24,347 nucleotides of DNA. Origin: Campylobacterales bacterium (GTDB lineage: Bacteria; Campylobacterota; Campylobacteria; Campylobacterales; Hydrogenimonadaceae). Positions within the stretch are counted from its first letter, which is position 1. Each line of letters begins with the position of its first letter. This document shows, piece by piece, positions 2-23,319 of the stretch. Location: assembly GCA_027067015.1 (NCBI GenBank), contig JAMOMS010000267.1, positions 1 to 24,347 of the forward strand, given 5' to 3'. The notes below the pieces were generated by a model. That model made no database searches and was not told the DNA's origin. It saw only the letters and a program-made list of their open reading frames with translations. Position numbers and translations under genes: made by a program.

Positions 2-3000
2 ATCTCCAATCCCCAGGGCGGCGGCTTTGAGAATGTGACGATCGATAACGACACGGTGGCCACCACCATTCAAGACGGTAGCAGTGAGCCTGACGGGGGA
101 ACGGGTGAGGCCGATACGGTTTACGCTCGTATCGATGGGGATAATAGTGCGTATGAGGGAGAGAGTATCACCCATACCGTCACATTGGTCGATAAAGACG
201 GCAATGCCGTGACCGTACCGGATGATGAAACCGTCACGATCAATCTGACTTACGCCGGTAGCGGTGCCGATGCGGCTGAAAACGACGATTATACACCCCG
301 ACAAAGCGTCACCATCAGCGGTGGTAGCAGTGCGCAGGCCGAGATACCGGCTCTTGATGACTATCTCAATGAGAATGATGAGAGCTATACGGTGACCATA
401 GAGTCGGTTTCGCAGGCCAACGGTACGTTTGAGAACGTGGCCGTCGATACGGATCATGAGAGCGCTGTCGGTACGATATTGGGCGATGAGGCCAACGAGC
501 CTGACGGCGGCGTGGGTGAGCCCGATACGGTGTATGCCGTGTTGGAAGGCCCCGCTCCCACGGATGAGGGTGAGCAAACCGGCGACTTTACCGTTACGCT
601 GATGGACAAGGACGGTCAGGAGGTGCGCGTTGCGGAAGATACCGACGTGCGGATCGTCTTTGAGGATGTGACCTCGGAGGCGGAGGATTTTGACCATACG
701 GCGCAAACCGTTACTATCGCCGCCGGTAACGCATCGGCAACCTTTAACGTCCAGACCCAAGAAGACAGCGACGCGGATGATGAGACGTTCCGCGCGAAGA
801 TCGATGCGGTGCAGACCGCGGAGTTTGAGCATGTGGATATTGACGGCTTTACCGACTCGGCGGGCAATACGCATGTCGGTGCCGTTGAAGCGGATATTGT
901 CGATCAGGGTGTGAGCGCGACCGTAAGCGTTGATGACGTGAGTGTCAATGAGGATGCGGGAACCCTTGAGTTTACCGTTACGCTTTCAGAAGCGTTGACG
1001 GACGATGTCACCTTTGACTATCAGACCGCCGATCAAACAGACGGAAGCGGCGACGCGACCGCCGGTAGCGACTATACCGCCGTCAGCGGAAGCGGAACCA
1101 TTGCCGCGGGCGATACGCAAACCACGATCTCCGTTCCCATCGCCGATGACTATTTCAAAGAGGGCGATGAGCAGTTTGAGATCCATCTAAGCAACCTGAG
1201 CGACAACGTGGACGAGGCCAACTCCGACCTGCTTGGGATCGGCACCATTCAGGATGCGGGCAGTACCGACGACAACGGCGATAGCGCCGAGTCGCCTTTG
1301 GGCGCGGAAGATACGCTCTTTGTGGAGATTACCCACAATGATGAAGTCGCGGAAGGTCAAACCCTGAGTCACACGGTGAAGCTGGTGGACAAAGACGGCA
1401 ACGCCGTGACCGTGGCCGACGGCGAGACGCTTACGGTTCACCTGGGCTACAATCAAGCCGGCGATGACAGCGCCGAGAGCGACGACTACACCGAAGTCGC
1501 GACCGTGCAGATCGGTGCGGGCGAATCGGAAGCGACGGTGGAGATCGCCAGCGTGGATGACGATTTGGCCGAAGGGGATGAAGAGTATACGGTGACAGTG
1601 ACCGCGGTGGATCAGGAGAACGACACCTACGAAAACGTGGCCCCCGCCAATACCGCCAACGGTTATGTCAGCGACAGCGATACGGCGACCGGTACCATCC
1701 TGGCCAGCGACCTGACGGCCGAGTCGAGGGTGTCGGAAGAGGGCTTAAGCGGCGGCAATCCCGACAGCAATCCCGACGCGACGCTCGATACCACCGACAG
1801 CGCCACCGACAGCGGTACGTTGGAGGTGGAAGCGGGCAGTACGGTTACGCTTTCGGCGCCGACGGGCAGTTACACCTCCGGCGGGGAGACGATTGCCTGG
1901 TCGACATCCGACAGTGACCACACCCTCACCGGTTCGGTGGCTGACGGGGAGGTGATTAGGATTGAGATTGATGATGCGGGCAACTACACCACCACCCTCT
2001 CCCAGCCTTTGGATCATGCCGACGCCGATATGGAGGACAATCTCTCCATACCCGTCACCGTCACGATCGATGACGGGGCGGGCAATACGACGGACGCGAC
2101 GCTAAACGTGGTTGTCGAAGACGACGCGCCGACGGCTCAAAGCGCCGATACGTTGATTGATCTGGACGTGGTACCCAAGACCACCAACCTCTCCTTTATT
2201 ATCGATATCTCCTCCAGTATGTCCGATGATGACCTGCTTTCAACCGAGGATGCGATTCAAACGGCCATCGAAGAGTACGGCAAAAACGGTCCGGTCAATG
2301 TCAACCTGGTGCAGTTTTACGGGGACGGGCATCATCAGACTACATGGATTAAAGATGTCACAAGCATTGATGACCTCCCCCACGATTATGACTGGAGTGA
2401 CGCGAAGGATGATACGGTAGACAGCTCCGAGTATGATCACAACCATGTGCTCGATAACGACAAGAGCGGTACCGACCCCGAACAGGGTATGCGCGCGCTG
2501 GTGGAAAACGCCTATAGCGGCCATCAGCCCGACGCGGATCAGAATGTTGTCTACTTTATGGGTGACGGTGACTCCTATGACGCGTACCAGACCGATTTTG
2601 ATGATTATACCGGCGTGTTGGAGCGTGACGATGACGGCAATGTAACCAGTTACGATCCGGATAACCCCTGGACCAACTTTGTTACCGGCGGGGATATTGA
2701 CAAGCTCTATACCTACAGTGTCAATACTTCCGATGTCTTAAAAGACCTGGTCCATCTGGCCGATAACGGCGAAGATGCGGTGTCTCAGCCAGCCGAGGCG
2801 CTGGATGTGGATCAGTTGGGTGATGAGATCGCGTCAACCGTCGAGTTGACCGAAACCGGCGATTTGGTGCATGACAGCCAAACCGATGAGACCTATATCC
2901 ATTACGGCGCCGACGGCGGTCATCTGGAGTCGGTTACCATCGGTGACAATACGGTGCAGTACGATCCTGATAATCCGACTCAGACCGTAACCGGTACCCA

Positions 3001-5068
3001 TGGAGACTTTACCATCGATTTTAATACCGGTCATTACACATTCAAGTCGACCGATGACAACCGGGTTGAGTATACCGAGTCGGTGGAGGCCAAAGTACAA
3101 GACGGTGACGGCGATACGGTCGATACGGTATTGTTGGATATCAATGTCTCCTACGGTGACGGCCTTAGCAGTTCGCCGCATATTAATCCGGTTGATACCA
3201 GTGTCGTGAAAGATCAGCAACAAAGTATCGGTAACGTTACCGACGACGGCAGTATCGACAGCAGTTCCCTTTCGGCCGATCACGGTACGGCGGAGCTGGA
3301 TAGCGAGGGCAACATCATCTATACGCCCGATAGCGGTTATCTGGGAAGTGACGTGGTGGATGTCAGCGTAACCGACAACGATGGCAATACCAGCTCCCGC
3401 AAAATCGAAATCAACGTCGTGGAAGAGGCGGACAACGCCGATGCTCCCGATCTTTCTATGGATATATCCGATGCGCAGGTTTCGGTAGAGGGTGTGGATG
3501 AGAGCGACACCTTTGACAGCGATACCGAGGGGTGGGTAGACGAAGACGGCGGAAACGATTATGTCTGGGAAGAGAATGAGCACCTGCATATTACCAACCC
3601 GCACCATGATGCGCTTAAAACCTTTGATTTTGGTAGCGAAAAGGCCAATATGGGTGTGACGGTCTCGTTTGATGCCTTTATTGATGAGAATGAGTGGGAC
3701 AGCGATGACAGCATGAGTGTCTATATTAACGGGGAAGAGGCCATTACCCGCAATCGTGCCGAGCTTTTGGATGATAGTGCCCAATCGTTTGAGACCAATC
3801 TGGATGATGAGGGCAAACTGGCGGTCAAGATTGTCAACAACACAGACAGCGGCGGTAGTGATTCGGAGTGGTTGGAGATTGACAATTTCCATATCTTTAA
3901 AGAGACGGAGTATAAATATGAGGTGGACCTGACGCCGACACTGACCGATACGGAGGGTAACGAAAGTTTGGAAGATTTGTTGCTTTTGCAACTGCCTGAC
4001 AATGTCAAACGGGTTGAAGACGCCTCCGGCAATGCGTTGAGTAAAGAGGATGACGCGTATACCGTTGCTTCCGATCCTGTTAGCGGTGATACGGTCAGCG
4101 TGACGGTCTATACCGATGGGCAGATGAGCGATACCGATTTGGACGCCATTCGCAGTCGGGTCTCTTCCGTGGTGGCCGATAGCGGTGACAAGGCGACCGT
4201 GGAGGTTGATCGTAACGATGACGCGACACTGATTGACGGGATTGTTTCGGGCATCTATTACGAGACCGATTCGGGTCTGAACGGCTATACCGATGAAGCG
4301 GGCAATTTTGAATACCGCCACGGTGATACGGTTACCTTTAAAGTCGGTGATCTGGTGGTCGGTCAGATCGCGACGGAGAAGATTGAGGACGGCAAGGTCT
4401 TCTTGCAGGATATCGCCGGTGTCGAGCGGGAGGATATGGATGACGCGTATGTGCAGAATATGGCCATTTTCCTTCAATCGCTGGATGCGGACGGCGATGC
4501 CGATAACGGCATTGAGATTACCGAAACGGCCCATGAGGCGTTTGAAGAGAGTGACGGGGAACTGCTCTCTTTGGATAGAGAAGAGCTGGTGGAGATACTA
4601 AAGGATGTGAGTGATCATGTGGTGGATGAGGCGTCGGCCATGGCACACGTAGAGCGGATGCTCGCGCAATATGATAAGGATGAAGAAGGTACGGCGCAAA
4701 CAGAGGAGAATGAAGATACGCAAGCCAAAACCCTGATGCTGAGTGATGAAGAGGCAAAACCTGACGTTTTGGTCGATAAGAGTGAGATGTCGGAAGAAGC
4801 TATGGCCTCTGAGGGTGAGAGTATCGATCTAAGCGGTTTGGATACATTGGCTGACGAACAAGAGGAGAAACCGACGCAAGAACCCGAAGCGCTCTCTTCC
4901 TTGGATGATGTGTTGGTTGAAGATGAGAAGGGTGACATTGAGGACTTGCCCGAAAGCTCGCACACCGTTCTCTCCTCAACAGAGGCGACACAAGAGAGTA
5001 TGGCCAAAGAGATCGATCCTACCGTGATGCCCAAAGTGGAAGAGGAGACGGCCTTAACGCTTTGCTAA
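2..5068 (+). CDS. Giant repeat-containing surface/secreted adhesin-like protein with vWA domain (5' partial)
   Basis: The frame is open to the first base of the window, so the N-terminus and true start lie outside; the GTG at 35 is internal. About 1690 residues are visible. In order: Calx-beta-like acidic repeats (86-1711), a region like the T1SS-143 domains of large RTX adhesins around the GLSGGNPD motif (1740-2130), and a von Willebrand A domain (about 2180-2830). The vWA domain has a complete-looking MIDAS: DISSS at 2204, a Thr in SGTDPEQG, and an Asp in FMGDGDS. Cadherin-like modules follow (2870-3420), then a lectin-like stretch (3500-3900) and an acidic tail. The protein is very rich in Asp, Thr and Ser. 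I see no GGxGxD RTX nonapeptides. The last residue is Cys, which is unusual. A TolC-like gene follows, which fits type I secretion. Family membership is inferred from domain pattern; function (adhesion or biofilm) is uncertain. Confidence 0.8.
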   Translation: MSNPQGGGFENVTIDNDTVATTIQDGSSEPDGGTGEADTVYARIDGDNSAYEGESITHTVTLVDKDGNAVTVPDDETVTINLTYAGSGADAAENDDYTPRQSVTISGGSSAQAEIPALDDYLNENDESYTVTIESVSQANGTFENVAVDTDHESAVGTILGDEANEPDGGVGEPDTVYAVLEGPAPTDEGEQTGDFTVTLMDKDGQEVRVAEDTDVRIVFEDVTSEAEDFDHTAQTVTIAAGNASATFNVQTQEDSDADDETFRAKIDAVQTAEFEHVDIDGFTDSAGNTHVGAVEADIVDQGVSATVSVDDVSVNEDAGTLEFTVTLSEALTDDVTFDYQTADQTDGSGDATAGSDYTAVSGSGTIAAGDTQTTISVPIADDYFKEGDEQFEIHLSNLSDNVDEANSDLLGIGTIQDAGSTDDNGDSAESPLGAEDTLFVEITHNDEVAEGQTLSHTVKLVDKDGNAVTVADGETLTVHLGYNQAGDDSAESDDYTEVATVQIGAGESEATVEIASVDDDLAEGDEEYTVTVTAVDQENDTYENVAPANTANGYVSDSDTATGTILASDLTAESRVSEEGLSGGNPDSNPDATLDTTDSATDSGTLEVEAGSTVTLSAPTGSYTSGGETIAWSTSDSDHTLTGSVADGEVIRIEIDDAGNYTTTLSQPLDHADADMEDNLSIPVTVTIDDGAGNTTDATLNVVVEDDAPTAQSADTLIDLDVVPKTTNLSFIIDISSSMSDDDLLSTEDAIQTAIEEYGKNGPVNVNLVQFYGDGHHQTTWIKDVTSIDDLPHDYDWSDAKDDTVDSSEYDHNHVLDNDKSGTDPEQGMRALVENAYSGHQPDADQNVVYFMGDGDSYDAYQTDFDDYTGVLERDDDGNVTSYDPDNPWTNFVTGGDIDKLYTYSVNTSDVLKDLVHLADNGEDAVSQPAEALDVDQLGDEIASTVELTETGDLVHDSQTDETYIHYGADGGHLESVTIGDNTVQYDPDNPTQTVTGTHGDFTIDFNTGHYTFKSTDDNRVEYTESVEAKVQDGDGDTVDTVLLDINVSYGDGLSSSPHINPVDTSVVKDQQQSIGNVTDDGSIDSSSLSADHGTAELDSEGNIIYTPDSGYLGSDVVDVSVTDNDGNTSSRKIEINVVEEADNADAPDLSMDISDAQVSVEGVDESDTFDSDTEGWVDEDGGNDYVWEENEHLHITNPHHDALKTFDFGSEKANMGVTVSFDAFIDENEWDSDDSMSVYINGEEAITRNRAELLDDSAQSFETNLDDEGKLAVKIVNNTDSGGSDSEWLEIDNFHIFKETEYKYEVDLTPTLTDTEGNESLEDLLLLQLPDNVKRVEDASGNALSKEDDAYTVASDPVSGDTVSVTVYTDGQMSDTDLDAIRSRVSSVVADSGDKATVEVDRNDDATLIDGIVSGIYYETDSGLNGYTDEAGNFEYRHGDTVTFKVGDLVVGQIATEKIEDGKVFLQDIAGVEREDMDDAYVQNMAIFLQSLDADGDADNGIEITETAHEAFEESDGELLSLDREELVEILKDVSDHVVDEASAMAHVERMLAQYDKDEEGTAQTEENEDTQAKTLMLSDEEAKPDVLVDKSEMSEEAMASEGESIDLSGLDTLADEQEEKPTQEPEALSSLDDVLVEDEKGDIEDLPESSHTVLSSTEATQESMAKEIDPTVMPKVEEETALTLC
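86..1711 (+). repeat. Calx-beta-like tandem repeats inside the giant protein
   Basis: Diverged repeats of about 137 codons. Units one and two begin at the EPDGG codons at 86 and 497 (411 nt apart). The peptide LVDKDGNAVTV is encoded at 185 and again at 1382, with the degenerate form LMDKDGQEVRV at 599. Units end in a GTI(L/Q) strand. A more canonical Calx-beta unit (VSVNEDAGTLEF) lies at about 911-1260. At DNA level the copies have diverged, so the array looks old rather than freshly duplicated. Confidence 0.7.
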
Positions 5069-14235: not shown

Positions 14236-17040
14236 TTACGCCTTGTAAATCTTGACCGCACACTTTTTGTAGTCGGTCTGCTTGGACATCGGGCAGGTGT
14301 GGTCCAGGCACACTTTGTTAATGAAGACCCGCTCATCGAACCAGGGCACAAAGACCAGACCGCGAGGCGGTCGGTTCCGTCCACGGGTTTTGATGTGGGC
14401 TTTGACTTTGCCCCGGCGGCTTTCCACCCAGACCAGATCGCCGTCTTTGAGGCCTTTGGCTTTGGCGTCTTTGGGGTTCATGTAGCAGAAGGCCTCGGGC
14501 ATCGCGCGGAAGAGTTCAGGAACACGCATGGTCATGGTACCGCTGTGCCAGTGCTCGATCACGCGACCCGTACAGAGCCAGGTGTCATACTCTTTATCCG
14601 GCTGTTCGGTCGGATCCATGTAAGGTCGGAAGAATATCTTGGCCTTACCGTGCAGGTCGATCTTGCCTTTGGAGGGATCGATCTTTTTGAGGTTACCGCG
14701 TTTGATGACTTTAAGCGCCGGACCGTAGAAGTTGAACTCCTCGCCCGGTTTGGCGTATTTGCGCGCGTAGGGGTCATATTTGACGTTAAAGCGCCAGGGG
14801 GTGTCTTTGCCGTCCACAACGGGCCAGCGCAGACCGCGGACGCGATGGTAGGTATCGAAATCGGCCAGGTCGTGTCCGTGTCCGATACCGAATTTGCGGT
14901 ACTCTTCCCAGAGCGCTTTTTGAATGAAGAAGCCGTAGCCTTTCCAGGGTTTGCCGTCACTTCCCAGCACGTTTCGGCTATCACCGAGAACTTCGGTGTT
15001 ATCGAAACCTTCGCTGATCGGATCGTCGGCACGGAAACTGCGATAGAAATCATTGGCGAAGAGGATCTCAAACATGGTGGTATCTTCGTCATAACCCATC
15101 TTTTTGGCCTCTTCGATGACGTTGGGCAGTTTCTTGCCGCCTTTGATGGTCCACTCACCCCACAGATCCTTCACGGTAAAGCGTTTGGAGAGCTCAACCC
15201 ACTGCCAGGTGTCACTCATGGCGTCACCTACGGGCAGAACCTGTTGTCGCCAGTGTTGCGTACGGCGCTCGGCGTTACCGTAGGATCCCCATTTTTCATA
15301 AATCATGGCCGAAGGCAGAACCAGGTCGGAGACTTTGGCCGAAATGCCGGGGTAACCGTCGGAGGTGACGATAAAGCAGTCTTTGGTGCGGGCCGCTTTG
15401 ATCCAGTGGTTGGCGTTGGCCGTGTCTTGGAAGGGGTTACAGACGTTGACCCACGCGAACTTGATTTTGCCGTCTTCGATCTGGCGTTGAATGTTCATGA
15501 TGTGCTGATAGCCCACCGGGTTGATGGTGCCTTTGGGCAGGCGCCAGATCTTCTCGGCGATTTCGCGGTGTTTGGGGATCTTAACCAGCATATCGGCGGG
15601 CAGACGGTGGGTAAAGGTACCGACTTCGCGGGCCGTACCGCACGCGGAGGGCTGACCGGTCAGTGAGAAGGCGCCCATGCCCGGTTTGGCCTGTTTGCCC
15701 AGCAGGAAGTGAACCATATAGGATTGCTCGTTGACCCAGCTACCGCGGTAGTGCTGGTTCATACCCATGGTCCAGAAGCTGACCATCTTGCGGCTCTTGT
15801 CGATGTAAAGGTCGCGCAGGGCTTCCAGTTTTTTCTTGAACTCTTCGATCGGCTCATCCGGGTCACCCTTGGCGACACTGGCGACATAGTCGAGAGTATA
15901 GGGTTCCAGACCTTTTTTGAACTCTTCAAAGCTGATCTCCCAGTGCCCAAGAGCGTGACCGCGGTGAACCATTTTCATGTTGTCGCCGGCTTTGTAACCC
16001 AGCGGCGCAAGTCCGGGCGCTTCACGTTCGGAAACGGTGTGGTTGGCTTCTTGTTTGATGGTCTCCAGCTCTTTGTCGCTGTAGCCCAGTTTTTTCGCTT
16101 CATCGGGCATACGCATACCGTAGCCGGTTTCAACGAAGCCGGTGGCGAAAATGATATGTTTTTTGACAAAATCCCAGTCAATGACATCGGGATGGTTGTA
16201 GACAATCTCGCGGGCCAGGTAGTTCCACATGGCCAGGTCGGAACCGGGACGGAAGATGATCTCCATGTCCGCCAGGTCTGAACAGCGGTGGCGATAGGTG
16301 GAGATGTTGACCACTTTGACACGATCGGGATCGGAGAGCTTGCGGTCGGTGACGCGGGCCCACAGAATCGGGTGCATCTCGGCCATGTTGGCGCCCCAGG
16401 TGACGATGGTATCGGTGATTTCAATATCATCGTAACAACCGGAGGGCTCGTCGATACCGAAGGTCTGGAAGAAGCCGACAACCGCGGATGCCATACAGTG
16501 GCGGGCGTTGGGGTCGATGGCGTTAGACCTAAAGCCCGCTTTCATCATCTTGGCCGCGGCGTAACCTTCCTGAATGGTGTACTGACCGGAACCAAATACC
16601 GCAACCGCTTCGGGGCCGCCCTCTTTGAGCGCTTTGCGGATGGCGCGTTCCATTTCGTCGAATGCGCGTTTCCAGCTGACGGGGCGGAATTTGCCTTTTT
16701 TGCTGAAGTTGCCGTTTTCATCCATCCGCAGAAGCGGGGTGGTCAGACGGTCGGCACCGTACATGATTTTGGCGTTGAAGTACCCTTTAATACAGTTTAG
16801 ACCGCGGTTGACGGGTGCGGCGGGGTCCCCTTTGACGGCGACGATCTTGCCGTCTTTGGTTGCGACCATAATACCGCATCCGGTACCGCAGAAGCGGCAA
16901 ACCGCTTTGTCCCAGCGCCAGCCCGCTTCGGCGGCGTTGGCTTTGGCCTCAACTTCGCTCGGAACCGACATCCCGACAGCGCTGGCGGCCGTTGCGGCCG
17001 CTGCGCTCTTGAGGAAGTCGCGTCGTGACATGGATGACAT
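14236..17040 (-). CDS. napA: NapA, catalytic subunit of periplasmic nitrate reductase
   Basis: 934 aa; reduces nitrate to nitrite in the periplasm at a Mo-bisMGD site. Visible features: Tat signal [16 protein letters not shown] at residues 5-20; a [4Fe-4S] site at C48, C51, C55 and C83; the Mo-ligand Cys at C182 in [10 protein letters not shown]; and the C-terminal cofactor-binding region with [16 protein letters not shown]. The length fits the longer epsilonproteobacterial NapA form. The ATG at 17040 has AGGAGG 5 nt upstream; the frame is open to an ATG at 17112 without a ribosome site, and that extension would displace the Tat motif. It is the first gene of the nap operon, under the FNR-type promoter described separately. 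Confidence 0.97.
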
Positions 17041-17080
17041 ATTTACCTCCTGTAATTTTGCACGTTTCTGGAACCGCCAG

Positions 17081-17137
17081 GCGCCCAGATAGAAAAAATG
17101 AAATTTAAACATTTCTTGAATCTGGGCGCTTAGATTC
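17081..17137 (-). promoter_or_regulatory. napA leader with two mutually exclusive hairpins
   Basis: In the transcript, the segment at 17129-17118 can pair with either of two partners. The first is the upstream GAATCT/AGATTC pair (17132-17137 with 17118-17123, 6 bp). The second is the downstream ATCTGGGCGC (17081-17090 pairing with 17120-17129, perfect 10 bp), which encloses a further 5-bp helix (17100-17104 with 17111-17115). The ribosome site AGGAGG lies about 30 nt further downstream. Competing hairpins in a leader of about 100 nt resemble an attenuator or riboregulator; the function is not known. Confidence 0.45.
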
Positions 17138-17149
17138 CAACACCAAACA

Positions 17150-17191
17150 ATTCTACAGAAGGGAGGCTGAATTATTCTTGATATTTGTCAA
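17150..17191 (-). promoter_or_regulatory. napA promoter with FNR/DNR-type box at -41.5
   Basis: TTGAT-ATTT-GTCAA occupies 17178-17191. On the minus strand a -10 hexamer TAGAAT lies at 17155-17150, which predicts a start near 17143. The box centre (17184.5) is then 41.5 bp upstream, the classical class II position for FNR/CRP activators. The leader to the napA ATG is about 100 nt. Confidence 0.75.
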
Positions 17192-17242
17192 AGAGACTGA
17201 TAAAAATAAGAAGTAAAACTAAAGAAGGTAAACAAAAAGAGT

Positions 17243-17884
17243 TTAAAGATAAAAAGTTTCCAATCCCTCTTTGTCCAGGATCAGGATCTCATCCTTTAGT
17301 TTTTCAATGAGTCCCATGGTGGAGAGTTTTTTGAGAATACGCGAGAGGGTTTCGGGGGTCATGTTGAGATTGGCGGCGATGTGGCTCTTTTTGAGCTTGG
17401 AGATTTTGTCTCCGTTCTCACACAAAAACTTGGCGACCCGGGCGGTGGAGTTCATGACCATGTTGGTGGCGATGACGTTTTCAAGGTATTTGATCTTTTT
17501 GCTTAAAGATTTAATGAACGCGAAGGAGATGTCGGGATTTTTGAGAAACTCTTTTTCAAAGGTATCGTAGTTGATGCTCAAAACCTTGCCGTCACTCTCA
17601 AATTCAGCCGAAGCGGGGTAGCGCATATGCTCGAAGTTGACAATCTCGGCGATGACGTCTACGGGAAAGAAGTGGTGCAAAATGACTTTGTTGCCCTTCT
17701 GGTCGGTTTTGTAGACTTGTAAAATACCTTCAAGCAAAATAATGAGATTGGCGGCTTTGTCGCCCTCGAAAAAGAGGATGGAACCTTTTTTATACTCAAT
17801 GACGTTGGAGATCTCATCCAGTCGGGCCAGGCTTTTGTCGTCGAGATCTTTAAAGAGGTAAAACGATTTAAGTTGCTTCGTCAC
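17243..17884 (-). CDS. CRP/FNR-family transcription regulator of denitrification (DNR/NssR-like)
   Basis: 213 aa with an N-terminal cyclic-nucleotide-binding-like beta-roll (GSILFFEGDKAANLIILLEG), a long dimer helix (about 115-140) and a C-terminal winged helix (SHIAANLNMTPETLSRILKKL). The recognition helix has E178, S181 and R182, the E-x-x-S-R set that reads TTGAT in FNR. Only one Cys (C155) is present, so there is no FNR-type [4Fe-4S] sensor; a heme/NO sensor as in DNR, or a nitrosative or nitrate signal as in Campylobacter NssR, is more likely. The start is a GTG at 17884 with AGGA upstream. It lies 9 nt behind a 61-aa membrane protein gene and reads toward napA; no terminator is visible in between. 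Confidence 0.88.
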   Translation of the reverse strand: MTKQLKSFYLFKDLDDKSLARLDEISNVIEYKKGSILFFEGDKAANLIILLEGILQVYKTDQKGNKVILHHFFPVDVIAEIVNFEHMRYPASAEFESDGKVLSINYDTFEKEFLKNPDISFAFIKSLSKKIKYLENVIATNMVMNSTARVAKFLCENGDKISKLKKSHIAANLNMTPETLSRILKKLSTMGLIEKLKDEILILDKEGLETFYL

Positions 17885-17893
17885 GCCTTTCCT

Positions 17894-18079
17894 TTAAGCA
17901 AATCTTAAAAATAGTCCAATTGCCAAAGAGAGAAGGACAACCATCGTAAGCATCACGGGTTTATAGTAACCCTCCGGAATCGGATAACGGGCATCGATCC
18001 ACTCGGTGATCCGCATGGCGGGGTAGATCATGAAAAAGAGCATCACGATCGAAAAGACGAGTGTTAATACAAGATCCAT
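17894..18079 (-). CDS. Small two-helix membrane protein upstream of the regulator
   Basis: 61 aa from the ATG at 18079, which follows AAGGAG; the open frame further upstream has no ribosome site. Two hydrophobic helices (about residues 2-22 and 40-59) flank a polar loop with EWIDARYPIPEGYYKP. The family is not recognised. The stop is 9 nt before the GTG of the CRP/FNR regulator, so the two genes form one operon, driven from the divergent region with the perfect FNR box. It could be a membrane partner of the regulator or of the nitrate pathway; this is inference only. Confidence 0.65.
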   Translation of the reverse strand: MDLVLTLVFSIVMLFFMIYPAMRITEWIDARYPIPEGYYKPVMLTMVVLLSLAIGLFLRFA

Positions 18080-18131
18080 TTTATCTCCTTGCCCGTCGGG
18101 AAGTCCATTATAGGCGGGTGGGACTGAAAAT

Positions 18132-18203
18132 AAGATAAAAATTATCCCTTTTTTCGTCATTTGATCGGGATCAAGGCGCCGAGAGGAGGAGAGTGGTTAC
18201 TAT
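18132..18203. promoter_or_regulatory. Divergent promoters around a perfect FNR box
   Basis: TTGAT-CGGG-ATCAA (18161-18174) is a perfect FNR consensus palindrome. To the right, TACTAT (18198-18203) is a + strand -10 with a start near 18210. To the left, TATCTT on the minus strand (18137-18132) gives a start near 18125. The box is about 42 bp from each, so one dimer could act on both the regulator operon and the 123-aa protein gene. Confidence 0.65.
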
Positions 18204-18238
18204 AGGGGTAGAGACTCTTGTTAGCGTGGAGTAGATGG

Positions 18239-18610
18239 ATGAAACAGTTTTTATATATAGAAGGGGCTTACCTCATTTTTTCGGGGGTCATTTTGCTGAT
18301 TACGCTTTTTGTGGTGACACGCCCTTTTATGACGGTGAGGGCAAGAAAAAGGGGATTGCCGGCGGTGGCGCTCTTTTTGGCTTTGGCCATCGCGCTACAT
18401 TATAAAGTGACAACCGGCCGGATGGCGCGGGTAAAAAAGAGTTTTGAAGAGGGAAGGCCGGTCATTTGCGAAAACCGTGTTATACGCAAGGGCTCCCAGT
18501 CCATTATTATCAGGCGCTCTTTGGGGTGGCGGCTGGAGGGTGACTATTTTGTCTCCGACGCCTATACCCGTCCCTTTTTTACGGCCCGATGTGTCGAATA
18601 TGAGAAGTGA
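18239..18610 (+). CDS. Membrane protein of unknown function, divergent from the regulator operon
   Basis: 123 aa. The ATG at 18239 is chosen since GGAG (18228-18231) lies 7 nt upstream; the ATG at 18235 is in another frame. Two hydrophobic helices (about residues 9-30 and 42-60) are followed by a soluble basic domain of about 60 residues with two Cys (VICENRV and ARCVEY). The family is not recognised. It shares the perfect FNR box with the regulator operon, which ties it to anaerobic or nitrogen-oxide regulation. Confidence 0.65.
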   Translation: MKQFLYIEGAYLIFSGVILLITLFVVTRPFMTVRARKRGLPAVALFLALAIALHYKVTTGRMARVKKSFEEGRPVICENRVIRKGSQSIIIRRSLGWRLEGDYFVSDAYTRPFFTARCVEYEK

Positions 18611-18727
18611 CAAAAAAGTGTCGAAAAAATAGTTCCATTTTTACATCAAAAATATTGTTTAACTTCCCCCATCTCCTCATTTTAATTTAGTATAAATAAT
18701 CAAAACTAAGAAAAATATATAATTTTC

Positions 18728-18769
18728 TTGATGTAAGTCAACGTTGAATCCGATAAAAAGAGTCATAAT
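18728..18769 (+). promoter_or_regulatory. nor-nir operon promoter with FNR/DNR-type box at -41.5
   Basis: TTGAT-GTAA-GTCAA lies at 18728-18741. A -10 hexamer CATAAT (18764-18769) predicts a start near 18776. The box centre (18734.5) is again exactly 41.5 bp upstream. The surrounding region (18611-18827) is AT-rich and holds no other gene. The GTCAA half-site matches that at napA. Confidence 0.78.
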
Positions 18770-18828
18770 TATCCCGTGCCTTATTCTTTTAAGCAATAAG
18801 GTCTGCCTAACCAAAAGAAAGGAGTGTC

Positions 18829-19191
18829 ATGGAGTCGGTCATCCATATGCCCCAACTGGCACCGGATGCGTTTTTGGGAATATTTATCGTGGCGACGCTG
18901 GTTCTGGTTTTTGGAGTCGGTTACGCCGCGTTGATTACCCTCTCGAAGATGGGGTTTATTCCCAAAAAGTGGCAACCTTTCGGCTATCTTTTCTGGATAT
19001 TGCAGGCTTACAGCCTGTATGACCTGGCCCAGCGGGTACAGAGCAACCCTTTCACGACAAAAGTATTGATGGTGGCCATGGTGATCTACCTCTTTGCCCC
19101 CCATCTCTACTTTTATCTGATTGAGGAGTCCGAGAACCGCTACGACCCGGTTGAGGATGGGCAAACTACCAAATCATTAAAGGAGGCGTGA
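18829..19191 (+). CDS. Three-helix membrane protein leading the NO reductase operon
   Basis: 120 aa; ATG with AAAGGAG 4 nt upstream. Three hydrophobic helices (about residues 14-37, 47-64 and 74-96) connected by short loops, with an acidic C-terminus (EESENRYDPVEDG). The family is not recognised and it is not similar to NorE, NorD or NorQ as I know them. The stop codon overlaps the norC start by one base (TGATG), so translation is coupled. The FNR-type promoter lies directly upstream. A role as an accessory subunit or assembly factor of the NO reductase is inferred from position. Confidence 0.75.
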   Translation: MESVIHMPQLAPDAFLGIFIVATLVLVFGVGYAALITLSKMGFIPKKWQPFGYLFWILQAYSLYDLAQRVQSNPFTTKVLMVAMVIYLFAPHLYFYLIEESENRYDPVEDGQTTKSLKEA

Positions 19192-19856
19192 TGAGCAAGA
19201 AGAGTGCGTCGGTATGGACAAGCATACCGTTTTGGCGCCGTTCGGCGGCGTGGGTCACGGGTGTGGCCACCGTGTTGCTGATATGGCTGACGTTTGACAC
19301 GATGGGACAGATTAGTATGGGAAGTGACGAGGATCTTAAAAACGGCGTTACCAAACGGATTCCCGCCGCATCGGTCATCAACTACCATATTGATTACCAG
19401 TTTGATGACAAACGGGGCCATGAGGTGCCGGTGATCGGCGAAAAAGAGCCCTTTTTCGGAAAAGAGTGGAGCGCTGAAGAGGCGGCTAAACTGCTGCATC
19501 TTGGCAAGCTGACCTCTCAGGCAAAAAACTGTATGAACTGCCATACCCTGCTGGGTAACGGCGCCTACTACGCGCCCGATCTGACCAAAGCGTGGCTGGA
19601 TCCCAAATGGAACGACGGCACCATGACCGGCATTACGGGCAAAGCGAGCAAAGAGGAGGCGATGGCCGAATTTTTGATGCATCCTTCCCAATATCCTACC
19701 CATGCGCGGATGATGCCCAACCTTGGTATTACCAAAGAGGAAGCCGTGGCGCTGGTGGCGTTTTTGAAACATATGAGCGCCATCGACACCAACGGATTCC
19801 CCCGCAACTTCTCGCAATCGGCGAAGCGTCTTGAAGGAGGTACCCATGCTCATTAA
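19191..19856 (+). CDS. norC: NorC, cytochrome c subunit of nitric oxide reductase
   Basis: 221 aa from the ATG at 19191, with GGAGG 4 nt upstream; the GTG at 19188 is too close to the ribosome site. One N-terminal membrane anchor (about residues 18-36) is followed by a periplasmic cytochrome domain. The heme motif is C114-MN-C117-H118, in the NorC-typical context CHTLLGNGAYYAPDLTKAW, and a Met in HARMMPNLG (174 or 175) is the likely sixth ligand. NorC passes electrons to NorB. The end overlaps the norB start by 11 nt. Confidence 0.95.
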   Translation: MSKKSASVWTSIPFWRRSAAWVTGVATVLLIWLTFDTMGQISMGSDEDLKNGVTKRIPAASVINYHIDYQFDDKRGHEVPVIGEKEPFFGKEWSAEEAAKLLHLGKLTSQAKNCMNCHTLLGNGAYYAPDLTKAWLDPKWNDGTMTGITGKASKEEAMAEFLMHPSQYPTHARMMPNLGITKEEAVALVAFLKHMSAIDTNGFPRNFSQSAKRLEGGTHAH

Positions 19857-21297
19857 CGGTCAATTGAAATATGAGTCGCAAAAGCTTGCGATGAACTATT
19901 TTCGGGTCGCAATCGTATTGTTTGGCGCCCAGCTTCTGATGGGGCTGATTGCCGCCATTCAGTTCCTTTATCCCGGATTTTTGTTTGAACTCTTTGATTT
20001 CAGCGTGGCGCGGATGGTGCACATCAACGCCCTGGTGGTCTGGATGCTTTATGCGATGATCGGTTCGGTCTACTACATGATTCCCGATGAAACGGGACAT
20101 GAAGCGGTCGGTATCGCGTTGGGCAAACTGGCTTTCTGGATTCTGACCGCGGCGGTGACCGTGGTGGTACTGGTTTATATCTTCATTCAGGTGGGATCGG
20201 GTAGCGAATCGACCATCTGGTTCATCAACGAGGGCCGTGAATACCTGGAAGCGCCGCGCTGGGCGGACCTTGGTATCGTGGCGGTGGTGCTTGTCTTCTA
20301 TTACAATGTATTCTTCACCTACCTGAAGTCTGAGAAGAAGACGGGTATCATGACCGTTATGGTCGCCAACCTCTTCGCGCTGGCGGGCCTGTATCTGTGC
20401 GGTATGTTCTTTACCGACAACATCTCCATGGATCAATACTGGTGGTGGTGGGTTATCCACCTGTGGGTTGAGGCGACTTGGGAAGTCTTTGTCGGAACCC
20501 TGGCCGCTTACGCCCTTATCAAAATCCTGGGCGCCAAACGCGAAATTGTTGAAATGTGGCTCTGGATTGAGGTATTGATGCTCTTTGGATCCGGAATTTT
20601 GGGGCTGGGTCACCACTACTTCTGGATCGGAACGCCTGAATACTGGTGGGAGATCGGTGCGCTCTTTAGTGCCCTTGAGCCGGTGCCGCTGGTGGCGATG
20701 TTTGTGCACGTACTGTATGACTGGGGTAAAGAGCAGGGCCATGCGGAAGCCGGCGGCGCCGATACGGCGGTTAAAAACAGCCCGGCCATGGCGTGGATCG
20801 CCTCCAACGCGTTTGGAAACTTCCTGGGCGCGGGTATCTGGGGCTTTTTCCACACCTTACCGCAGGTGAACATCTATACCCACGGTACGCAGTTTACGGC
20901 GGCCCACGGCCACCTGGCCTTCTTTGGCGCCTACGCGACCATTCTGATCGGTATGATGTATCTGGGCGTACAGGGCGCGTACGGCATCAAAAAAATGACC
21001 ATGACCTTTAAAAGCAAGATGGCGCTCTTTTTGATTATTTTCGGCGTGCTTGGCATGACGGTGGCGCTGACCATCGCCGGGTATGAGCAGGTGCTGGTTG
21101 AGCGGGCCGATCTTGGCGGCGGCTGGGACGCCTTCTTTATCGCACAGGAACTTCCCTGGTATGTACAGGCCCAAGCCTGGCGGCTGGTGATGGGGATTGT
21201 GACGCTGGTGGGCTTTGTCTACCTGGCCTGGGATCTTCTGACCATCGGTCAGGAGGTTTCGCAAAAAGAGAGCGAAAGCGTAGCGGCGACTGCGTAA
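19846..21297 (+). CDS. norB: NorB, catalytic subunit of cytochrome c-dependent nitric oxide reductase
   Basis: 483 aa; reduces NO to N2O in the membrane. The ATG at 19846 has AAGGAGG 5 nt upstream, inside the end of norC. About 12 membrane helices. The non-heme iron site is complete: H205 and E209 in IHLWVEATWE, and H256-H257 in GLGHHYFWIGTPEYW. H354 and H356 in TAAHGHLAFFGAY are the heme b/b3 ligands, and H59 in ARMVHINALVVW is the other low-spin ligand. There is no N-terminal quinol-oxidase extension, and norC is adjacent, so this is the cNOR type rather than qNOR. Confidence 0.96.
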   Translation: MLINGQLKYESQKLAMNYFRVAIVLFGAQLLMGLIAAIQFLYPGFLFELFDFSVARMVHINALVVWMLYAMIGSVYYMIPDETGHEAVGIALGKLAFWILTAAVTVVVLVYIFIQVGSGSESTIWFINEGREYLEAPRWADLGIVAVVLVFYYNVFFTYLKSEKKTGIMTVMVANLFALAGLYLCGMFFTDNISMDQYWWWWVIHLWVEATWEVFVGTLAAYALIKILGAKREIVEMWLWIEVLMLFGSGILGLGHHYFWIGTPEYWWEIGALFSALEPVPLVAMFVHVLYDWGKEQGHAEAGGADTAVKNSPAMAWIASNAFGNFLGAGIWGFFHTLPQVNIYTHGTQFTAAHGHLAFFGAYATILIGMMYLGVQGAYGIKKMTMTFKSKMALFLIIFGVLGMTVALTIAGYEQVLVERADLGGGWDAFFIAQELPWYVQAQAWRLVMGIVTLVGFVYLAWDLLTIGQEVSQKESESVAATA

Positions 21298-21609: not shown

Positions 21610-23319
21610 ATGAAGATTGCGAAGCTTCTGAGCATGGCGGCGGCGGCCTCCATGGTGACCGGATCGCTTTATGCCGGTACCTCGAAGATGGATTTTGGTA
21701 AAGTCTATGAGAAAGAGTGCCAGGGATGTCACGGCCCGATTCACCAAGGTGGTGTCGGATCCGACCTGCGCCCCAAAGCGCTGAAGAAGAAAAACGCCCA
21801 GATGCTGGCTGAAACCATTCTTAACGGTCGTCAAGGTACGGCCATGCCTTCCTGGAAACACCTCTTTAGCAAAGACGATGCCGCCGGTATGGTTGAGTGG
21901 CTTATGAACTGGAAAAACACCGTCGAGCTCAAACTCTCTTTGGATGAGGTAAAAAAGAGCTGGAAGATTCTGGCGGATCGCAACGCCCTTTATAAAAAGT
22001 ATCCGAAACCGACCGATGTCAAAGATGTCAAAGATATTGTCTTCGCCACCGAGCGGGACGCCTCTTTGGTTGATTTTATCGACGGTACGACCGGTAAGGT
22101 TCTCTCTCGTCACAAAGCGGGCTTCGCGGTTCACGTCACCGTCACCAACAAACGGATGCCCCGCTACGCCTACTCCATTAGCCGCTCCGGTCGTCTGACC
22201 ATGTTTGATCTCAATGCACCCGGTCAACCGGCTCTTGCCAGCGTTCAGGTAGGACAGGAGTCTCGCGGTCTGGCTGTTTCTCCCGACGGTAAATATGTTA
22301 TGGCCGGTAACTACAATCCCGGCGGCGCGGTTCTTTGTGACGCCAAAACCCTTGAGCCTTTGAAAGTCTTCCCGACATCAAGCGTTATCGATCCTGACGG
22401 TAACATCGGACCCAGCCGTGTCGCCTTTATCGCGGATACCCCGTACGCGCCCTATTTTGTCTTCGCGCTCAAAGACGGCGGCCATGTCTATATTGTAGAC
22501 TACTCCAAACCCGGCTTCCCGATTGTGGGTGACGTGCCCAATGTCGGTAAAATCCTGCATGACGCGTTTGAAAACGAAGGCAAGCAGATCGGCCGGTTTG
22601 TCTATGTGGCTTCTCAGGGCAGTGACCTGATGGGTGTTATTGACCTTAAAACCAAAAAGCTGGCGGCCAAGATTTATACCGGTCCCGGTACCAAACCGCA
22701 CCCGGGTCAGGGAAGCTCCTGGTATAACGAAAAATATGGTCAGCTCAACGCCACCAACAGCATGAACGTCGGTGACGTGGTTATCTGGGATATGAACAAC
22801 GAAGTGGTCGCCAACGTACCGACCGCGGGCGGCGGTCTGTTTGTGGGAACCAGCAAAGATACCCCCTATATCTGGTCTGACTGTGTACTTGGCGGACCCC
22901 ACAACTACAACAAGGTCTATCTGATCAACAAGCAGACCCTTGAGACCGATCGCATTATTGAAGTCGGTAAGAAAAAAGGTCACCTGATCGACGCGCATAC
23001 CGGTAAAATTCTGCAAACCTGGGACGCTACCCAGTATCAGACCGTCAAAGGCAAAGAGGTTAACTCCAAACTCTCCAAAGAGAAAGTGGTTACCTATACC
23101 GCCAAACACGGTCCCCGTGTTAAAAATCCGGTTCAACCCCGCCTGCTCCACGCAGAGCCCGCGAACCACGGCAAGTGGACCTTTATCTCCGAGTGGACGA
23201 CCGGACGGATTGGTGTTTATGACGCCAAAACCGGTAAGTTCATCAAATATATCTACAATATGACGACGCCGACTTTCACCTACTCTGTCGAGCATCGTCA
23301 AGAAGTACCCGGCGCGTAA
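21610..23319 (+). CDS. nirS: NirS, cytochrome cd1 nitrite reductase
   Basis: 569 aa, the usual NirS length; reduces nitrite to NO in the periplasm. Signal peptide at 1-22 (ends LYA). The N-terminal cytochrome c domain has C37-QG-C40-H41 and a Met in GTAMPSW. The rest is an eight-bladed heme d1 propeller. H175 in FAVHV corresponds to the proximal d1 ligand, and H317 (ILHDAF) and H364 (KPHPGQG) to the two active-site His. These three separate it from decayed homologues. A Lys-rich insertion lies near residues 455-500. The C-terminus is divergent from Pseudomonas NirS. No heme d1 biosynthesis gene (nirF, nirD, nirJ and others) is in the window. It is most likely transcribed from the nor promoter, since no closer FNR-type box is seen. 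Confidence 0.9.
   Translation: MKIAKLLSMAAAASMVTGSLYAGTSKMDFGKVYEKECQGCHGPIHQGGVGSDLRPKALKKKNAQMLAETILNGRQGTAMPSWKHLFSKDDAAGMVEWLMNWKNTVELKLSLDEVKKSWKILADRNALYKKYPKPTDVKDVKDIVFATERDASLVDFIDGTTGKVLSRHKAGFAVHVTVTNKRMPRYAYSISRSGRLTMFDLNAPGQPALASVQVGQESRGLAVSPDGKYVMAGNYNPGGAVLCDAKTLEPLKVFPTSSVIDPDGNIGPSRVAFIADTPYAPYFVFALKDGGHVYIVDYSKPGFPIVGDVPNVGKILHDAFENEGKQIGRFVYVASQGSDLMGVIDLKTKKLAAKIYTGPGTKPHPGQGSSWYNEKYGQLNATNSMNVGDVVIWDMNNEVVANVPTAGGGLFVGTSKDTPYIWSDCVLGGPHNYNKVYLINKQTLETDRIIEVGKKKGHLIDAHTGKILQTWDATQYQTVKGKEVNSKLSKEKVVTYTAKHGPRVKNPVQPRLLHAEPANHGKWTFISEWTTGRIGVYDAKTGKFIKYIYNMTTPTFTYSVEHRQEVPGA

Follow-up and report, generated by a model that had tools for sequence, protein, structure and literature searches.

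A predicted Nss/DNR-type regulon over nap, nor-nir and an orphan membrane gene in Hydrogenimonas

Three FNR-like boxes surround a Crp/Fnr-type regulator gene that lies between nap and nor-nir, and the question raised by this locus is whether these boxes are the sites through which that regulator controls denitrification. The window, which is the whole stretch of DNA analysed here (24,347 nt), belongs to the genus Hydrogenimonas (Campylobacterota), the name borne by the nearest loci with a name in the GTDB collection and likewise by the nearest named proteins, and not to Sulfurovum, Sulfurimonas or Nitratifractor, the genera mentioned in the original prediction. On the minus strand lies napA (14236..17040), encoding the periplasmic nitrate reductase, a twin-arginine protein that matches NCBIfam PRK13532 and TIGR01706 above cut-off; napG and napH were also identified in the window by NCBIfam. 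On the same strand are the gene of the Nss/DNR-like regulator (17243..17884; 213 aa, GTG start) and, directly ahead of it, a gene for a small protein of 61 aa (17894..18079) that is membrane-like by look, has no Pfam family, keeps its position in 14 genus loci and is probably in the same operon as the regulator. On the plus strand, a divergent gene (18239..18610) encodes an orphan membrane protein of 123 aa without a Pfam or NCBIfam family. The nor operon is headed in the genus by a gene for a 120-aa protein (18829..19191, plus strand), membrane-like by look and likewise without a Pfam or NCBIfam family, and continues on the plus strand with the genes for a cytochrome c subunit (19191..19856; PF00034 above cut-off) and a nitric oxide reductase subunit (19846..21297; PF00115 above cut-off), which are called norC and norB from their context. 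The cytochrome cd1 nitrite reductase gene nirS lies at 21610..23319 on the plus strand (PF02239 and PF13442 above cut-off). These family matches agree with the gene identities given for nap, the regulator, nor and nir in the original prediction. At 35-5068 of the window, a frame that runs from near the contig start encodes a 1677-aa acidic repeat protein that is adhesin-like by look.

The exact pattern TTGAT-N4-RTCAA occurs in the whole window only at 17178-17191, 18161-18174 and 18728-18741, as the original prediction had claimed, and the sites lie where it had placed them, at napA, between the regulator operon and the divergent gene, and at the nor-nir operon. Box 1 (17178..17191, minus strand) reads TTGAC-AAAT-ATCAA toward napA, and its end lies 138 bp from the likely napA ATG (17040), a longer open reading frame start at 17112 not being used. 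Box 2 (18161..18174, plus strand) is the perfect palindrome TTGATCGGGATCAA, which is matched on both strands, and Box 3 (18728..18741, plus strand) is TTGATGTAAGTCAA; the window has 4 strand-hits in total. Dinucleotide shuffles of the window (n = 100) gave a mean of 0.09 hits with a maximum of 2, and none reached 4, which bears out the earlier estimate that fewer than one box is expected by chance. When up to 2 mismatches to TTGAT-N4-ATCAA were allowed, 18 sites were found against 11.0 expected. The exact form alone is therefore informative, and the weaker boxes were set aside.

One alternative is that the boxes are chance matches or neutral remnants of common ancestry. Little divergence separates the window from its nearest relative (their regulators are 98% identical), and a box before an NfeD-like gene in the window genome was rejected as just such a chance site, being seen in 1 of the 9 genus genomes that have the gene. 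The regulator was sought in 60 relatives, and the surrounding regions were compared. The results show that every evaluable Hydrogenimonas intergene (40/40) holds exactly one TTGAY-N4-RTCAA box, i.e., the intergene between napA and the regulator in 13/13 loci, that between the small gene and the divergent gene in 14/14 and that between the divergent gene and the nor operon in 13/13. When the 40 intergenes were shuffled (letter shuffles, not dinucleotide shuffles), a box was found in 0.047, 0.013 and 0.033 loci for the napA, middle and nor intergenes, respectively, with a sum of 0.09. As a negative control, the reversed pattern was absent from the 40 intergenes, and no box was found in the 93,432 bases of adjacent coding sequence scanned in the genus loci. 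The middle box has 13 distinct spacers among 14 loci and its flanks diverge, and the boxes are therefore not frozen sequence; the invariance of the box arms in this spacer alignment is by construction, and the count over the 40 intergenes is the actual test. Two loci in which the regulator is present, not beside nap and nor (L076 and L077), were excluded from the genus locus count, and napA of the L076 genome has a box at the same distance. Contig edges remove one or two intergenes from three loci (L064, L069 and L073), and L063 and L064 come from one genome (G004). In this genome the regulator-nor locus is present twice, on two short contigs whose middle boxes differ, and a third contig (C28) has a second napA leader.

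Outside the genus, the box is found upstream of napA in 8/9 evaluable loci, before the first nor gene in 11/11 (10/10 without a duplicate) and before nirS in 2/3 (1/2 without a duplicate), and the backward control upstream of these three genes gave 0. The duplicates are L078 and L122, which are the same region, and L050 and L141, which are likewise the same region. These counts cover evaluable upstream regions in a biased sample, since the loci were chosen for encoding a relative of the regulator. One of the 8 napA boxes (L123) is far upstream, at -292, and the locus scored as a napA miss (L124) has a box just over 300 bp upstream. The original prediction had turned on the boxes being kept in relatives, and kept they are, both within the genus and at napA and nor in other families. 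With exactly one exact box in each of the 40 intergenes while the spacers differ and the flanks diverge, chance or neutral descent is a negligible explanation.

The original prediction had described the regulon as local and had suggested a scan of the genome for the motif. Across the assembly (1.62 Mb, 91.8% complete), the exact pattern occurs at 15 places (12 forward and 11 reverse hits) and the backward-read control at 0; the window contig (24 kb) holds 3 of the 15 places, and 9 further sites (L001, L003-L007, L009, L011 and L015) lie inside reading frames in a crude view of the open reading frames. Two other sites lie upstream of nosB-nosD (NosD, PF05048) and upstream of a precorrin-2 dehydrogenase-like gene (PF13241), here called the siroheme gene. 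The term local thus does not hold, since the same box also precedes nosB and this siroheme/d1 precursor gene elsewhere in the genome. Both sites are conserved: nosB is preceded by a box in 13/13 genus genomes in which the gene was found (18 searched), and the siroheme gene in 17/17 evaluable of 18 genus genomes (L111 was not evaluable). The heme d1 of nirS is made from siroheme. In the nearest relative, one contig carries the siroheme gene, a run of cytochrome-like genes, a radical-SAM-like protein (by look), nirS, nor, the regulator and nap. Whether nosZ belongs to the predicted regulon is uncertain: a box at one distance, 119-121 bp before its start, is present in 5 of the 11 loci that are evaluable by having the start and 198 bp upstream (present in L212 and L214-L217, absent in L206, L208-L211 and L213; L207 is cut off). 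No nosZ was found in the window assembly, in which the nosB contig starts 278 bp before nosB, and one relative has, by look, the end of a nosZ-like gene cut by a contig edge.

A box centre at -41.5 is the classical activating (class II) position. We scored -10 hexamers downstream of the boxes with a matrix of E. coli frequencies, so that the starts given here are predicted. For napA, the best -10 hexamer puts the start 41.5 bp from the box centre in 13/13 genus loci; in the window this hexamer is TAGAAT (17150..17155, minus strand), with a predicted start at about 17143 and the centre of Box 1 at 41.5 bp upstream of it. For nor, CATAAT or TATACT is found at the -41.5 spacing in 13/13 genus loci and is the best or tied-best hexamer in 10/13, a different hexamer outscoring it in the other 3/13; the window has CATAAT (18764..18769, plus strand), with a predicted start at about 18776 and the box centre at -41.5. 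The -10 hexamer lies at 41.5 or 42.5 for nosB in 13/13 genus loci and for the siroheme gene in 15/16, a count that excludes L105, where the box is at -157. Among boxes outside the genus, only 9/20 have their best -10 hexamer at the distance expected, or 10/21 when one Hydrogenimonas is counted. At the predicted napA, nor, nosB and siroheme gene promoters of the genus, the boxes thus lie at, or within one base of, the class II site position in nearly all loci.

The middle box lies between two divergent units, so it could serve the divergent gene, the regulator operon, or both. On the divergent side of the window, the predicted -10 is TACTAT (18198..18203, plus strand), which puts the predicted start at about 18209-18210 and the box centre at -42.5. 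On the regulator side, the best -10-like hexamer is TATAAT (18107..18112, minus strand), with a predicted start 67.5 bp from the box, a distance that is not conserved in the genus. An alternative is autoregulation, in which the middle box would let the regulator control the operon that encodes it, be it this operon only or the divergent gene as well. Bound to a palindromic site, a dimer could act in both directions, and the window alone has a hexamer at 42.5 on both sides, the one on the regulator side being the weaker TATCTT. Two-way class II activation, which the window hints at, was weakened by the genus comparison. A TANNNT hexamer is found at -41.5 or -42.5 on the divergent side in 10/14 genus loci (4/14 are without it), although offsets near 55.5 score on average as well as 41.5 on this side. 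On the regulator side it is found at 41.5 or 42.5 in 2/14 loci, little different from the background (about 0.1 per two-base window), and the distances of the top-scoring -10 hexamers are scattered there. These results suggest that the middle box most likely serves the divergent orphan membrane gene, which it fits better than the regulator operon, and autoregulation is the less likely use of this box, at rather less than one chance in two.

The divergent gene itself was found in 13/18 genus genomes. Its protein has 43 homologues at E <= 0.001, and those with names are from Hydrogenimonas or from one epsilonproteobacterial MAG; the gene is not strictly bound to the genus, as a 45% match lies near the regulator in one genome of another family (L049). 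Two cysteines, C77 and C118, are invariant across 37 aligned sequences. The AlphaFold model (pLDDT 92.6) predicts two long helices plus a small beta domain, and a comparison of this model with the PDB gave no fold match at E <= 0.001.

Which protein reads the boxes was addressed through the regulator and its paralogues. The regulator matches PF00027 (63.4 bits) and PF13545 (49.6 bits), both above cut-off. Residues E-x-x-S-R of the recognition helix read TTGAT half sites, and the claim that the regulator carries them stands, as its helix is MTPETLSRIL and E178, S181 and R182 are invariant in 28/28 aligned relatives. Its best relative in the PDB is DNR (3dkw; E 2.4e-24 with a profile), and the model of the regulator has a pLDDT of 83. 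H70, which is also invariant in 28/28 aligned relatives of the order and stands opposite a Glu in DNR, is a possible sensing residue.

It could be that another protein, an FNR-type oxygen sensor or another Crp/Fnr paralogue, reads the boxes and that the adjacent regulator gene has no part in this. The consensus given for FNR in PMC1274295 is likewise TTGAT-N4-ATCAA, and position alone does not name the reader; moreover, with an assembly that is 91.8% complete and a search limited to the Crp_2 helix-turn-helix family, a reader could have been missed. However, 7 genomes (5 of them 100% complete) have 19 Crp_2-type domains above cut-off, of which only those of the 7 orthologues of this regulator carry E-x-x-S-R. 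The only other Crp_2-type member of the window genome has the helix VRHVVNR, and its gene (L219:3685-4356) lies directly after a pair that, by look, encodes a fumarate reductase/succinate dehydrogenase-like flavoprotein and an iron-sulphur protein. FNR has several essential cysteines that ligate its iron-sulphur cluster. The regulator (213 aa) has one cysteine, so it is no iron-sulphur protein of the FNR kind. With these observations on the Crp_2 family, a different reader is improbable. In two genus genomes (76 and 88% complete), the boxes of the target genes are kept and a close regulator was not found. In a Hydrogenimonas with the regulator about 7 kb from nap (L240, G010:C48), a second related protein has VTLSR in its helix, not ETLSR.

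Taken together, we give a probability of about 0.85 to the reading that the boxes are binding sites of the Crp/Fnr regulator at 17243-17884, through which a signal of the NO type would lead to class II activation of nap, nor-nir, the orphan gene, nosB and the siroheme gene. The boxes, their conservation, the fixed -10 distance and the helix that sets this regulator apart from the other Crp_2-type proteins searched are the sequence-based parts of this reading; binding by the regulator, activation and the gas sensed are what we infer. The Nss/DNR-type regulator would sense a nitrogen oxide, probably NO, and its dimer would bind TTGAY-N4-RTCAA centred about 41.5 bp upstream of the start. The bound dimer would then recruit RNA polymerase as a class II activator, which would switch on napA, the nor-nir operon and the divergent orphan membrane gene, together with nosB and the precorrin-2 dehydrogenase-like gene feeding siroheme and heme d1 elsewhere in the genome.

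The 5' leader of napA, from the predicted start at 17143 to the ATG at 17040, carries a stable hairpin (17068..17140, minus strand), which fills the upstream part of the leader and was found by fold z-score, covariation and a covariance model. Its z-score is -4.4 in the window and ranges from -4.4 to -8.3 across 7 of the 13 leaders when folded singly. Across the 13 leaders, 95.7% of pair cells are standard versus 92.6% in shuffles, and 7 pairs change on both sides, which was reached in 4/500 shuffles; when the partner was slid by one column, pairing fell to 54-55%. The covariance model has matches in 10/149 genomes of the order, and all 10 are Hydrogenimonas; the genomes listed include 12 of the genus, of which 2 are without a match in a search whose filters can lose weak matches. 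One strong match (E 8e-20) lies outside the training set, and apart from the napA leaders there are only weaker opposite-strand matches at the same places. A search of the window against Rfam at gathering thresholds gave 0 matches, and no paper title on napA leaders was found that describes this hairpin.

The distance from the box end to the napA ATG is about 131-142 bp inside the genus; in 7/9 loci outside the genus, the corresponding distance for the promoter-proximal box is 56-69 bp. The hairpin ends ahead of the ribosome-binding site and is not followed by a U run, so nothing marks it plainly as a terminator or as a fold masking the start; as a guess, it could be a 5' stabiliser or a protein target. 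We tentatively propose, at slightly below even odds, a lineage-specific second control of Hydrogenimonas napA under the box of the regulator, in which the 73-nt hairpin at the mRNA 5' end (at about +4; other Campylobacterota leaders are about 22-35 nt) would tune the stability or translation of nap mRNA, possibly via a protein or ligand. The napA leader hairpin is a candidate RNA element without an Rfam match at gathering thresholds.

Crp/Fnr-family control of nap and nos through a TTGA-N6-TCAA box is known from other Campylobacterota. In Wolinella succinogenes, the three regulators NssA, NssB and NssC upregulate nap, nrf and nos on nitrate, NO or N2O (Kern and Simon 2016, as cited in PMC6682613 and PMC8139620), and the Nss box is TTGA-N6-TCAA as cited in PMC11539149. 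Wolinella has three regulators and the ammonifying nrf pathway, whereas in the window a single regulator gene is placed between nap and nor-nir. In Nitrosophilus labii, exact TTGA-N6-TCAA boxes are reported to start 49, 48 and 48 bases upstream of the predicted napA, norE and nosB starts (PMC11539149), which is like the arrangement here, with boxes that begin at -48 from the predicted start. An N. labii homologue (P0110) is 60% identical to the regulator. By the same account, the nap and nor loci of N. labii each have a regulator of their own, in contrast to the single regulator here, and Hydrogenimonas differs further by the extra boxes at the orphan gene and the siroheme/d1 gene and by the napA leader hairpin. 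Both N. labii regulators are reported to correlate negatively with nosZ (PMC11539149), which suggests that action at nos genes may not be plain activation.

Other members of the superfamily were also compared. According to a 2005 comparative study (PMC1274295), DNR of Pseudomonas reads an FNR-like box at nir, nor and nos; it is the best solved relative of the regulator yet a distant one, with the Glu in place of the invariant H70. NssR of Campylobacter jejuni, as described in the same study, has specificity positions occupied by Ala/Gln, reads TTAACnnnnGTTAA and switches on a globin gene. It belongs to the same superfamily and has a role in nitrosative stress, but its boxes are TTAAC-N4-GTTAA whereas those here are TTGAY-N4-RTCAA, which sets the present sites apart from the NssR type. 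The sequence features of an Nss/DNR-type regulon were found here, i.e., effector and Crp-type helix-turn-helix domains, E-x-x-S-R and boxes at nap, nor-nir and nos. The arrangement is therefore, as predicted from these features, the known Nss/DNR one of Wolinella and Nitrosophilus, here with a single regulator and an added orphan target. A search of literature titles on a denitrification regulator of Hydrogenimonas or on epsilonproteobacterial Nss/DNR boxes, in which subscription journals were thinly covered, gave none on the regulon of this genus.

A vent enrichment dominated by Hydrogenimonas is reported to reduce N2O (PMC6279868). For this genus, the present reading predicts one regulator over the reduction of nitrate, nitrite, NO and at least part of N2O, plus a step toward the heme d1 precursor, and it singles out the orphan membrane gene as a probable part of the denitrification response.
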